Shown here: in pieces, positions 116-31,926 of the stretch
Position numbering within the stretch: the stretch's first letter is position 1
How the letters are laid out: each line of letters starts with the position of its first letter
Assembly (NCBI GenBank): GCA_017433855.1
Contig: JAFRGM010000008.1
Coordinates: forward strand, 1-49,903
From: Candidatus Saccharimonadota bacterium
Lineage (GTDB): Bacteria > Patescibacteriota > Saccharimonadia > Saccharimonadales > Saccharimonadaceae
Reading direction: 5' to 3'
Length of the DNA stretch: 49,903 nt
Notes under the pieces: generated by a model
Databases searched by the model: none
What the model was told of the DNA's origin: nothing
What the model saw: the letters and a program-made list of their open reading frames with translations, nothing else
Position numbers and translations under genes: made by a program

Positions 116-148
116 AAAATGGTGGTACCGGGTGGGATCGAACCACCG
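116..148 (-). repeat. partial copy of the tRNA-Met 3' end
   Basis: These 33 bases are identical to 199-231, the downstream flank, CCA, acceptor 3' strand and T arm of the tRNA-Met gene. The 5' half of the tRNA is missing. On the transcribed (minus) strand it lies between tRNA-Met and tRNA-Arg, so it would be part of the same precursor. It has a T arm and an encoded CCA but no D or anticodon arm. See the findings on 3'-end repeats. Confidence 0.9.
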
Positions 149-3111: not shown

Positions 3112-3197
3112 GGAAGGGTGGCCGAGTGGTTGATGGCACTGGTCTTGAAAACCAGCATACGAAAGTATCGCAAGTTCGAATCTTGTCCCTTCCGCCA
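3112..3197 (+). tRNA. tRNA-Ser (anticodon TGA)
   Basis: A class II tRNA of 86 nt with a long variable arm. The acceptor GGAAGGG pairs with CCCTTCC, G73 and an encoded CCA follow, and the anticodon loop is CTTGAAA, giving TGA (Ser UCN). A 19-nt hairpin (CATGCC / GGCATG) starts within the CCA end, and a partial 3' copy follows at 3252-3274. Confidence 0.95.
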
Positions 3198-3251: not shown

Positions 3252-3274
3252 CGAATCTTGTCCCTTCCGCCATG
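3252..3274 (+). repeat. partial copy of the tRNA-Ser 3' end
   Basis: These 23 bases are identical to 3177-3199: the tRNA-Ser sequence from inside the T loop through the acceptor 3' strand, G73, CCA and the next two bases. It lies in the same transcript, 54 nt beyond the tRNA and before the terminator at 3291-3314. No D or anticodon arm is present. Confidence 0.9.
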
Positions 3275-11593: not shown

Positions 11594-11609
11594 TGGCTTG
11601 GTGGTTCCG
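11594..11609 (-). repeat. partial copy of the tRNA-Phe 3' end
   Basis: These 16 bases are identical to 11638-11653: acceptor 3' strand CGGAACC, A73, CCA and the AGCCA that follows. Just before it on the minus strand is GGCTCCG, which can pair with CGGAACC except for one C-A mismatch. The copy could therefore form a 7-bp acceptor-like minihelix ending in ACCA. It lies between tRNA-Phe and tRNA-Lys in one operon. Confidence 0.85.
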
Positions 11610-11642
11610 TTTACGAAGTTCCGGAGCCAGCAAGTTTTGGCT

Positions 11643-11718
11643 TGGTGGTTCCGACTGGACTTGAACCAGTGACACAAGGCTCTTCAGGCCTCTGCTCTAC
11701 CAACTGAGCTACAGAACC
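11643..11718 (-). tRNA. tRNA-Phe (anticodon GAA)
   Basis: Cloverleaf with acceptor GGTTCTG / CGGAACC, A73, encoded CCA, anticodon stem GAGGC/GCCTT and loop CTGAAGA, giving GAA. Position 37 is G rather than the usual A. First gene of the Phe-Lys-Val unit. Confidence 0.93.
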
Positions 11719-20446: not shown

Positions 20447-21460
20447 TTAATAGGGACTGCGATTGACGTTGCCAGCCGTATCCCGATAAGGGAATGTATA
20501 GTTAGTGCTGGCGTTATCCTTAACGCTTCTGTAATAAAGATTCCCGCTGGAATCTTTATAGTAGAAGCAGTAGTTGGACGGCAACGTCTGTCCGCAGTTG
20601 GCGATGCCGCTACTTCTGGCCTCGATCCGGAAGAAGATCTCGTAGGCCAGCTTGACGTCGTCCTCCGAGAATTTGGCGTTGGACTTATAGTCGGGATAGT
20701 ACTGGATGAGATTCGCGAAAGTATCGCTGCCCTTCGCGTTCATGATGTTCCAGTATGTATCTGCAAGGCTCTTGTAGTTTCCGGAGGGGTTCAAAGAGCG
20801 GCCAAAGCGCGCCAGGTATTCGGCGTCGCTACGGGAAGCGGCGGTTTCAACACCGTAAATACGCCCAGCATAGAGCTTAACGCCACTGTAGCTATAGTTG
20901 CTACTACTTAAATTGGCATTCCGCTCTGTCCAGGCATTTTTATATTTGGTGTTGTCGTTCTTGTTGTCTTTCTCTTTACCACCGTAGTCGTCGTAGTAGG
21001 TATTGCCGAGATATGTGCCGTTTTTCAAAATACGGTCATTTTCGGCGGCTGTGGCCCAAATCTGCGAAGTCCCGCTACGGCGGTAGAAAGTGCCGCTTTG
21101 GGTTTGGTACCAGATGTAGCCACTGTAGCGAAAGGCAATGCCGTTGGAGGTATTGCCGCCGTCGCTGTAGTAGCTACCGATGATGTCCGGGGTCAAGTAG
21201 TACTTCTGGCCATCCGTGGCATCGTAGAAGTAGCACTTGGCCATATCTTTGCCGTCGGCCATATCCCAGCCGCGTTGGTTGATTTTGACGAAAGCCGATT
21301 TCTCTGCGATGTTGGCATCACGATAGATTTCGGCGGCGGCGTGAAAATGGTCTTTGAGGGATACGCTGTCCACGTAATTGTAGGCAGTGGCGGTGCCGAC
21401 CGAGATGGCACCCAGGAAGAATGTGGCAATAAGAGACAAAACGATAATGGCTTTTTTCAT
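20447..21460 (-). CDS. secreted protein of unknown function, probably very highly expressed
   Basis: The 337-residue protein begins with a signal peptide, MKKAIIVLSLIATFFLGAISVGTATA, with likely cleavage near residue 26. The mature part is rich in Tyr, Ser, Asn and Gly, with short aromatic repeats (GYIWYQTQSGTFYRR, SSGNLYYRS) and four cysteines. No family is recognised. Expression signals are exceptional for this window: TTGACA-17-TATAAT, AAGGAGGT 7 nt before the ATG, and a strong terminator. Codon choice differs from neighbours, with more GC and C-ending codons. It may be a major surface or envelope protein, or recently transferred DNA; high expression explains the signals better. Confidence 0.85.
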   Translation of the reverse strand: MKKAIIVLSLIATFFLGAISVGTATAYNYVDSVSLKDHFHAAAEIYRDANIAEKSAFVKINQRGWDMADGKDMAKCYFYDATDGQKYYLTPDIIGSYYSDGGNTSNGIAFRYSGYIWYQTQSGTFYRRSGTSQIWATAAENDRILKNGTYLGNTYYDDYGGKEKDNKNDNTKYKNAWTERNANLSSSNYSYSGVKLYAGRIYGVETAASRSDAEYLARFGRSLNPSGNYKSLADTYWNIMNAKGSDTFANLIQYYPDYKSNAKFSEDDVKLAYEIFFRIEARSSGIANCGQTLPSNYCFYYKDSSGNLYYRSVKDNASTNYTFPYRDTAGNVNRSPY

Positions 21461-21597: not shown

Positions 21598-21667
21598 TGG
21601 TAGTCGCGGCGGGATGGGTTATCCCTTGCTCCTGGTAGTCGCGGCGGGATGAAGAATCCCTTGCTCC
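21598..21667 (-). repeat. two tandem 35-bp copies of the tRNA-Glu 3' end
   Basis: Two 35-bp units lie directly downstream of tRNA-Glu. On the minus strand each has GGAGCAAGGGAT, a variable 5-nt loop (TCTTC or AACCC), and ATCCCGCCGCGACTACCA, which is the T-stem/acceptor 3' strand and CCA of tRNA-Glu. GGGAT and ATCCC pair around the variable loop. The units are identical except for that loop. With the tRNA itself the CCA ends recur every 35 nt at 21598, 21633 and 21668. Confidence 0.95.
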
Positions 21668-21744
21668 TGGTAGTCGCGGCGGGATTCGAACCCGCGATTG
21701 CATGGATGAAAACCATGTGTCCTAGGCCTCTAGACGACGCGACC
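21668..21744 (-). tRNA. tRNA-Glu (anticodon TTC)
   Basis: Cloverleaf with acceptor GGTCGCG / CGCGACT (G1-U72), A73, encoded CCA, anticodon stem CATGG/CCATG, loop TTTTCAT, giving TTC. It is followed by two tandem copies of its own 3' end. Confidence 0.95.
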
Positions 21745-29460: not shown

Positions 29461-31926
29461 ATGCAAGAAGAATTTAGCGAAATTATGAATCATTTGTCTG
29501 AAAATGCAAGATTTGCATTGCAGAAGTCAGACTATTATAGTAAAAGATACAATAATGGCTATATGGGGACGGAGCATCTCTTGATGGGGCTTTTGGCCAT
29601 GGATACTTCTACGGCGGCGAAGGTTCTAAGAGAAGCTGGTGTAACGATAGACGAAGTGGAAAAATCGCTAAATAAGGTAGCAGTAGAAGTGGTGGGTAGT
29701 GATATGGCGATGATGTCTTTGTCTGAGGCGGTGATTTTGACGCTAAGAATGGCGCAAAATTATGTTAAGGAGCAGGGGCTTACCGTGATAGGCACTGAAC
29801 ATATTTTGTATGCGCTTTTGAATCAGCCAAATTCGCGAGCAGCTTTGATAATTAACGGGTTGGATGCAGATACGGAAAAAATTCTAGATGAAATCGAGGC
29901 GCTTGTAGAAGAACAAACTAAGGACGAACAGTCTAAGGCGGAAAAGGCCAAATATATTAAAAGCCCAGCGTTGAAGTTCTTGAAAAAATACGGTAAAGAT
30001 TTAACGGAAGAGGCACGAGCTGGACAATTAGATACGGTAATTGGACGCGAAAATGAAATCGAACGTGTAATTACGGTTTTATCTAGACGAACAAAATCTA
30101 ACCCGGTGCTAATTGGTGAAGCTGGTGTGGGTAAGACTGCAATTGTGGAGGGGTTGGCAACTAGAATTGTAAAGAATGAGGTGCCGGGTGGACTAATTGG
30201 CAAGCATATTTATCAGGTAGATTTGTCATCTGTGGTAGCTGGAACGAAATTCCGGGGTGAGTTTGAGGAGCGCATTAAGGGTATTATCGACGAAGCGGTA
30301 GAAGATGATACGGTATTGTTATTTATTGATGAGATACACCTTTTGTGTGGTGCGGGTTCTAGCGAGGGGAGTATGGACGCGGCAAATATTCTAAAGCCGG
30401 CACTGGCGCGTAACAAAATTAATTTGATTGGCGCTACTACTTTGGATGAATACCGGAAGACGATAGAAAAGGACAAGGCACTAAGTCGAAGATTCCAGAC
30501 TGTAATGGTGGAAGAACCGAGTGCAGCGGTGACGCTTAGGATCGTAAAAGGGATTAAGCAGCACTATGAAAAACATCACGGTGTAATTATTCCAGACGAT
30601 GTGATTGAAACGGCGATCGCAATGAGTCAACGCTATATTAATGATAGATTTATGCCCGATAAAGTAATTGACATCGTGGACGAGGCTTCGGCGATTGCGA
30701 AGGTAGCCGCAGATAAAAAAGGTGGTGGTAAATATAAAAAGTTGAAGATTGAAAAGTCATCACTTGAAGAAAAGATTACCGAGGCGGCCGAAAAAGAAGA
30801 TTTTGAAAAGGCGGCGGAATACAAGACGGAGTTGGCGCGGCTTGAGAAAGAGATTTTGGCGCTGGAAAAATCTGGCGTAAAAGAAGAAGAGACGCCAACT
30901 CTGACCGAAGAGAACTTAGCCACGGCGGTTTCGCTGAAGACTGGTATTCCGGTATCCAAGGTGCATGGTTCGGAAATGAAAATGCTGATGGGATTGGAAG
31001 ACGAACTAAAGAAATCTATTGTTGGACAAGATGAGGCGGTGGCGGCAGTAGCGAAGGCAATACGTCGGGGGCGCAGTGGTATTACGGATTCGCGACGCCC
31101 AATTGGTTCGTTCTTGTTTATGGGGCCAACCGGTGTAGGTAAAACAGAGCTTGCACGCGTGATTGCTAGAGAGGTGTTTGGCGGCGAAAACGCGCTTGTA
31201 AAAATAGATATGAGCGAATTTGGCGAGAAACATAATGTGTCGCGATTAGTTGGGGCGCCAGCCGGATATATTGGTTATGATGATGGCGGGAAGCTAACCG
31301 AGGCAGTAAGACGTAAGCCATATTCGGTAATTTTGTTTGATGAAATTGAAAAGGCCCACCCGGATGTATTTAATTTGTTGTTGCAGATTTTGGAAGATGG
31401 GGTGCTGACCGACGGACAAGGAAACAAAGTGAAGTTTAATAATACGATTGTGATTTTGACTTCTAACCTTGGCTCTGCGGATATGTATCGTGAGAGTGAA
31501 CTTGGTTTTACCGCAAAGACATCTAAAGACAAAAAAGCACTTGCGGAAGAATATGAAGAAAATAAATCGTATGCGATGAAAGCATTGCGAAAGGTGATGC
31601 GACCAGAGTTAATCAATAGATTGGATGACATTGAAGTCTTCCATGCTTTGACAAGAAAGGATGTGGAGAAAATTTTTGACAATTTGATTGGTGATTTGAA
31701 ACGACGATTGGCGGTGAAGGGCGTGGGACTAAAAGTGTCGGACGAGGCGAAAAACTATTTGATTGAAAAGGGATATGATCCAAAGAATGGGGCTAGACCG
31801 CTTAGGAGATGCATTGAAGAAGAAGTGGAGTCGATAATGGCGGAAGCGTTGATTAGTGGCGAGCTGAAAAAAGGAGATATTCCAGAGCTTGTGCTACGCA
31901 ATAAGAAATTGGAGCTATCTAAATAA
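29461..31926 (+). CDS. clpC: ClpC-type AAA+ unfoldase
   Basis: The 821-residue Clp ATPase unfolds substrates for ClpP. The N-terminal Clp-N repeats include [10 protein letters not shown] and [12 protein letters not shown]1 has Walker A GEAGVGKT (about 220) and FIDEIHLL. A short middle region carries a UVR-like motif ([20 protein letters not shown]), typical of ClpC rather than ClpB. NBD2 has [11 protein letters not shown] and [12 protein letters not shown], with a C-terminal D2-small domain. The start at [16 protein letters not shown] fits ClpC homology and the -10 spacing; a longer upstream frame would run into CIRCE. Controlled by CIRCE and followed by clpP 11 nt later. Confidence 0.95.

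Follow-up and report, generated by a model that had tools for sequence, protein, structure and literature searches.

RtT-like repeat units matched to the adjacent tRNA 3′ end behind tRNA genes of gut Saccharibacteria

Among the short repeats found behind bacterial tRNA genes, those of E. coli tyrT were described around 1980, and to our knowledge no explanation for them has gained general agreement since. Several other systems combine small hairpins or tRNA duplications in comparable ways. REP/BIME elements, which are mobilised by RAYT (Y1) transposases, are small conserved intergenic hairpins, and integron attC sites are imperfect hairpins that keep conserved unpaired positions, occur in arrays and have arms maintained by base pairing, the cassettes themselves usually bearing genes. 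When genomic islands and tycheposons target a tRNA gene, the gene stays intact and an attR site downstream repeats its 3′ end. The tyrT repeats belong to the RtT family (RF00391), which has been found in other places as well. RtT adjoins tRNA-Asn and tRNA-Lys in Actinobacillus, where Northern signals were obtained (PMC4986893), gammaproteobacterial RtT is expressed as RNA and has been described as a stringent response modulator (PMC4986893), a tandem G.A motif has been reported for RtT (PMC7657543), and a 175-bp rtT VNTR differs between strains of Salmonella Paratyphi A (PMC2658671). The initial annotation of the sequence analysed here was right to choose tyrT/RtT as the nearest parallel; its remark that the parallel is limited to one operon has to be corrected, as RtT units also stand at Salmonella tRNA-Pro and at the two Actinobacillus tRNAs (PMC4986893).

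The window that we analysed is one contig of 49,903 nt from an 86%-complete assembly of 596 kb with 42 tRNA genes, and the nearest named relatives of the source genome are Ca. Saccharibacteria of the ruminant gut. tRNA-Glu(UUC), identified with ARAGORN and Rfam RF00005 at 21668..21744 on the minus strand, is the source of a duplicated 3′ end. Behind it, on the same strand, stand two 35-nt units at 21633..21667 and 21598..21632, each composed of GGAGCAA, a GGGAT-loop-ATCCC hairpin, the acceptor 3′ strand and CCA. The first reads GGAGCAAGGGAT-TCTTC-ATCCCGCCGCGACTACCA (21667-21633) and the second GGAGCAAGGGAT-AACCC-ATCCCGCCGCGACTACCA (21632-21598), so that only the 5-nt loop differs, and the last 18 nt of each (21633-21650 and 21598-21615) are an exact copy of the tRNA-Glu end, just as the initial annotation had described these tandem units. 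Given that no further copy of this 18-nt suffix was found with up to two mismatches on both strands of the 596 kb, chance is excluded for the tandem Glu copies. The GGGAT/ATCCC hairpin pointed out in the same annotation is present in both units, but the stability of a single unit is ordinary (RNA z −1.36, with 21 of 200 shuffles equally good; DNA z −0.34), and its significance therefore derives from the family rather than from the Glu locus, at which the units are the minimal form: a T-stem hairpin, the acceptor strand and CCA.

In total, 4 of the 11 tRNA genes of the window are tailed, as had been claimed, all with copies of at least 11 nt. tRNA-Met(CAU, 203-279) has a 29-nt 3′-end copy at 120..148 (minus strand), 54 nt downstream of its CCA; tRNA-Ser(UGA, 3112-3197) has a 21-nt copy, from position 56 to CCA, at 3252..3272 (plus strand), preceded by a hairpin arm; and tRNA-Phe(GAA, 11643-11718) is followed at 11599..11628 (minus strand) by a hairpin, GGCTCCG-loop-CGGAACC-ACCA, in which 11 nt of the acceptor 3′ strand, CCA included, recur at 11599-11609. 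Five nucleotides past the second Glu copy begins a 12/12 consensus sigma-70 promoter with a 17-nt spacer and TG (21593-21565, minus strand); it reads into AAGGTATGACGC-TTTTT-GCGACGTACCTT and then TTTTTT, a possible leader attenuator ahead of the ORF at 20447-21460.

A search for 3′-end copies near tRNA genes in related genomes had been proposed as a check of these observations, and it shows clear enrichment. With tRNAs masked and a threshold of 11 nt, we scanned three genomes for copies of each tRNA's own 3′ end within 400 nt downstream and found them behind 15 of the 42 tRNA genes of the source genome, 16 of 44 in congener G072 and 2 of 41 in congener G039, that is, behind 33 of 127 tRNAs, against none of the 127 upstream or antisense. 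Only 1 of 5230 cross-tRNA pairs in the three genomes matched; the copies are thus those of the tRNA itself, downstream and on the same strand. Many begin in the T-loop, at position 56 or 58/59 (a suffix of 21 or 18-19 nt), and finish at CCA. Other species of the genus present the same pattern, including species that share an identical tRNA-Glu(CUC) yet have different tails or none. In many elements, the 3′ copy has been lost or has decayed; for instance, G039 has long elements, yet only two copies of at least 11 nt. The genome-wide scan and the relatives rule out chance or a local scar, and a dispersed repeat inserting anywhere is ruled out because the long and medium cores of the source genome occur behind tRNAs only. 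Tail-bearing tRNAs had no replication-strand preference (15/18 vs 39/55, p 0.69), proteobacterial loci taken as a control had copies at 0 of 9 tRNAs, a sample too small for statistics, and a literature search found no paper on tRNA tails in Saccharibacteria.

In the commonest arrangement, a terminator-like palindrome follows the CCA of the tRNA, and after it come the hairpin element, the copy with its CCA and a second terminator. The 5′ arm of the hairpin carries the antisense of that tRNA's T-arm (for example, GGATGAGAACC opposite GGTTCGAATCC), and at one tRNA-Phe (locus L251) it extends to TGGTGGTTCC and so covers acceptor and CCA in antisense as well. In the full unit, this arm is followed by a sense copy of positions ~51-57, by P3/P4 and by a sense copy from 58/59 to CCA, the sense strand of the long form being broken after position 57 by the two additional hairpins. 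P2 also copies tRNA-specific letters, for instance GGTTTCGA behind a Gly tRNA and GAGTTCAA behind one for Trp. P3 contains two tandem G.A modules, G[GA]R-N-C[GA]G opposite Y[GA]G-R-Y[GA]C, whose G and A positions are conserved in 54-59 of 59 aligned elements, and P4 is often capped by GCGAAGC. Long forms have folding z values of −6 to −8.7, while medium and short forms retain the antisense arm and the copy and have smaller loops. Hairpins were found within 60 nt past CCA in 73 cases, and a T-run comes after 52 of them, which argues against routine transcription of the element, and a terminator-like hairpin separates tRNA and element in most long elements. At L268, L285 and L304, the elements abut the tRNA directly and seem to borrow from it, its T-arm serving as P2 and its 3′ end forming the 5′ strand of P3. 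We also observed a second recurrent structure of ~105 nt behind tRNAs, CCATTAGAG..GGCGCCATCTCGGCGTTTTTT..AAAACACC..GGTGCC..CTCTAATGG, at L219, L235, L236 and L218 and at the source genome's tRNA-Leu(taa) (contig C11, behind 4905); it looks like a pair of opposed terminators within one palindrome.

The distribution of the long form (a P1-P4 junction) was followed with R1, a covariance model of P2-P3 built from alignment A2. It matches 83 of 99 genomes of the genus, with 1-17 matches per genome, and 59 of 295 genomes of the order, in 16 of 143 genera. Where context was available, 58 of 60 matches lie directly downstream of a tRNA on the same strand, mostly 46-59 nt past CCA; one of the remaining two is at a contig start, and the other is an element abutting tRNA-Glu. 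Among 59 distinct sequences, 97.2% of cells are paired, and both-side changes occur in all 23 modelled pairs and in 344 cells, a level reached in 0 of 500 shuffles and in no slid version. Fitting the alignment to the model inflates these figures somewhat, but slid controls drop to 35-62%. The elements also match their own tRNA. For 55 elements behind 18 tRNA species, agreement with the adjacent tRNA is 6.1 of 7 positions in P1, where other tRNAs reach 4.5 (0 of 2000 permutations), and 15.1 of 18 in the copy, where they reach 9.8 (0 of 500 permutations). With downstream copies strongly enriched in relatives and stems kept by compensatory change, the tails are a recurrent, non-chance feature and more than a single recombination scar, which agrees with what the initial annotation had supposed.

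The likeness to RtT is one of architecture. As in E. coli tyrT-tyrV and Salmonella tRNA-Pro, the elements stand behind a tRNA gene on the same strand (58 of 60 here), end in 18-19 nt of the tRNA's own 3′ end with CCA, as checked in E. coli and Salmonella units, and open with an antisense T-arm, GGATGAGAA(CC), followed by a P2 that ends in the tRNA's own GGTTC and by more hairpins. The tyrT-tyrV repeats of E. coli K-12 have the same order, with GGGGAAGGATGAGAA, a P2 ending in AAGGTTCGA, more hairpins and AATCCTTCCCCCACCACCA, the 19-nt end of tRNA-Tyr; at Salmonella tRNA-Pro, two annotated 168-nt RtT units each end in the tRNA's own 3′ end, ATCCTCTATCACCGACCA, with a terminator between. Both groups have tandem G.A in a conserved stem (54-59 of 59 here; PMC7657543 for RtT) and tandem units, those of RtT being 168-178 nt. 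Unlike RtT, the Saccharibacterial tails reach up to 36% of one genome's tRNA genes (counted as copies), occur at many tRNA species and include 35-nt minimal forms. The RF00391 model gave no match over its gathering cut-off in 20 genomes (source and relatives) and one at E 0.4, the E. coli control being positive, and R1 did not match E. coli tyrT; in Rfam as a whole, only tRNA matched at gathering scores, and no weaker match was credible. By analogy, then, we regard the tails as a variant with RtT architecture that is built like RtT and would work like it, a comparison that makes no claim to membership of RF00391.

Searching for the antisense pattern GATGAGAACCN{2,14}GGTTCG in 380 Patescibacteria genomes and in 21 genomes reached via loci (nearly all Proteobacteria) gave 14 matches outside the source genome, 8 of which lie 13-77 nt behind a tRNA. 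Among 120 fetched IMG/VR loci with the antisense T-arm, just 1 lies behind a tRNA, on which basis viral spread is rejected, and the E. coli rtT in phage records proved to be just a Salmonella draft chromosome contig filed as phage. Other systems share single features. The imperfect hairpins with conserved unpaired positions, the arrays and the paired arms are like those of integron attC, but here there is no integron integrase, there are almost no gene cassettes, and the arms match the adjacent tRNA. Genomic islands and tycheposons likewise have a 3′-end duplicate downstream of an intact tRNA, in contrast to which we find units of 35-180 nt without an integrase, in arrays and with a conserved hairpin core. 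REP/BIME elements are also small conserved intergenic hairpins, whereas those described here are strictly behind tRNAs and tRNA-matched, and Y1 transposase is absent in 29 of 30 genomes.

Units occur in arrays, and tails turn over. At L262, a unit of 182 nt is repeated exactly in tandem, at L226 and L251 the second unit is truncated, and Arg-gcg of G072 has two units; tRNA-Ser(UGA) in five relatives has the short form, other forms or no tail. In L133, the closest named relative, CTTGT stands in the Ser tail and CCTGT in the tRNA; the window has CTTGT in both. The tail of L133 therefore bears a T-stem letter that among the tRNAs is confined to the window. As the other relatives have CCTGT, the most economical order of events is a change in the tail that was later carried over into the tRNA; this single case suggests a transfer from tail to tRNA in the lineage of the window. 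No insertion, excision or template switch was directly observed in these comparisons, and no empty site was found. In the 86%-complete source assembly, the single recombinase is a housekeeping Xer-type tyrosine recombinase, and no integron integrase was found; Y1 transposase is absent from the source genome and present in 1 of 30 genomes of the genus. Counts of integrase, Y1 transposase and reverse transcriptase do not track R1 counts (for integrases, rho −0.07; G040 has 5 elements and no integrase match), and a dedicated recombinase, Y1 transposase or reverse transcriptase as the driver is rejected accordingly. In the source genome (G000, contig C8), a 143-aa ORF without a Pfam match (29487-29927, plus strand) lies on the opposite strand to tRNA-Gln(ttg) (30280-30354), between two 3′-end copies 169 and 1081 nt downstream of that tRNA; as the one ORF-bearing interval among 33 tRNAs with copies, it leads us to reject a gene-cassette array.

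The main rival to the reading that we prefer is that read-through of the tRNA releases a structured, functional RtT-like RNA, finishing with the tRNA 3′ end and CCA, that would act as an sRNA, a decoy for tRNA-handling enzymes or a regulator. A structure required in RNA from one strand is expected to tolerate G-U far more than A-C. The elements have 18 GT and 22 AC pairs, the tRNA stems of the three genomes 103 and 5 (Fisher p 5e-11, relatedness ignored), and P4 has 488 Watson-Crick pairs, 4 GT and no AC, while the first hairpins behind CCA have 36 GT and 9 AC. The test rejects tRNA-like upkeep as one-strand RNA; polarity is also low, however, in terminator-like hairpins at other places in the genome (40 GT and 30 AC), and the wobble test alone cannot tell DNA hairpins apart from RNA hairpins required in both orientations. 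Because pairing is kept without the tRNA-like G-U excess, DNA upkeep through hairpin or repeat recombination is favoured, and we prefer it to a dedicated RNA function with moderate confidence. The terminator-like hairpin that usually stands between tRNA and element and the loss or decay of the 3′ copy in many elements also count against a functional RNA, and together with the missing G-U excess they leave unsupported the role as a processing signal or decoy that had initially been suggested. Nevertheless, the strong covariation, the conserved tandem G.A modules, also reported in RtT (PMC7657543), and the RtT RNAs detected in gammaproteobacteria, where they have been described as modulating the stringent response (PMC4986893), all speak for such an RNA, which we consider the less likely reading.

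It is less probable that the tails are passive scars, i.e., inverted and direct 3′-end copies produced by template switching and replication slippage at tRNA hairpins, with neither function nor identity as elements. The short forms are wholly tRNA-derived, the 5-nt loops vary freely, types turn over at one tRNA (Ser-tga has none, short or medium) and arms are near-perfectly Watson-Crick, all as such an origin would predict, but P3 with its two tandem G.A modules is not tRNA-derived and is nonetheless found at 18 tRNA species and across genera, and the imperfect G.A positions persist though correction of the arms should erase them. We give still less credence to integron-like cassettes, in which a recombinase using the T-arm as an attachment site would insert small cassettes ending in a tRNA 3′ copy. 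Copies that run from the T-loop (position 56 or 59) to CCA, hairpin sites and arrays that recall attC, and the Gln-ttg ORF between two copies would all fit this idea; against it stand the lone gene-bearing interval, a source genome with only a housekeeping Xer-type recombinase, and the absence of any relation between integrase and element counts, including the five elements of G040.

The explanation that we prefer, with a probability of roughly 0.45, is that of a tRNA-anchored, RtT-type repeat unit, with arms templated on the tRNA and kept by DNA-level pairing and exchange. On this view, each unit is anchored on the 3′ end of the tRNA gene, and the tails correspond in Saccharibacteria to RtT repeats. 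As every unit carries the tRNA 3′ end once more, an exchange between the gene and its copy would add or remove whole units and leave an intact tRNA each time, allowing arrays to grow and shrink. Pairing would be upheld mainly at the DNA level, in hairpins on the tRNA-sense strand, and housekeeping enzymes may re-match the arms to each other and to the tRNA through template switching or exchange. We thus infer a tRNA-parasitic repeat rather than a dedicated host RNA. Two points argue against DNA-level upkeep: the tandem G.A modules suggest one-strand selection, for which a purely passive repeat would have no need, and RtT is expressed as RNA in gammaproteobacteria (Northern signals, PMC4986893). 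A broader and more doubtful proposal would unite RtT-type units across phyla as one ancient class of hairpin elements of single-stranded DNA, which would take the sequence of their arms from the adjoining tRNA and spread or persist via host replication and recombination enzymes, "RtT RNA" then being a by-product of a DNA element.

In this gut Saccharibacterium, around a third of the tRNA genes have a tail that duplicates their own 3′ end, in most cases as an arm of a tRNA-matched hairpin. A design known from a few tRNA genes of E. coli and Salmonella is thus found in a distant phylum, in which it is far more abundant. What looked like a curiosity of a few operons becomes, with many tRNA genes per genome, tRNA-matched arms and natural variants in the hundreds, a class of tRNA tails that is open to covariation analysis and to testing in cultured Saccharibacteria. 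Duplicates of tRNA 3′ ends are not always att sites of prophages or islands, and the RtT entry of Rfam may cover only a corner of this class.
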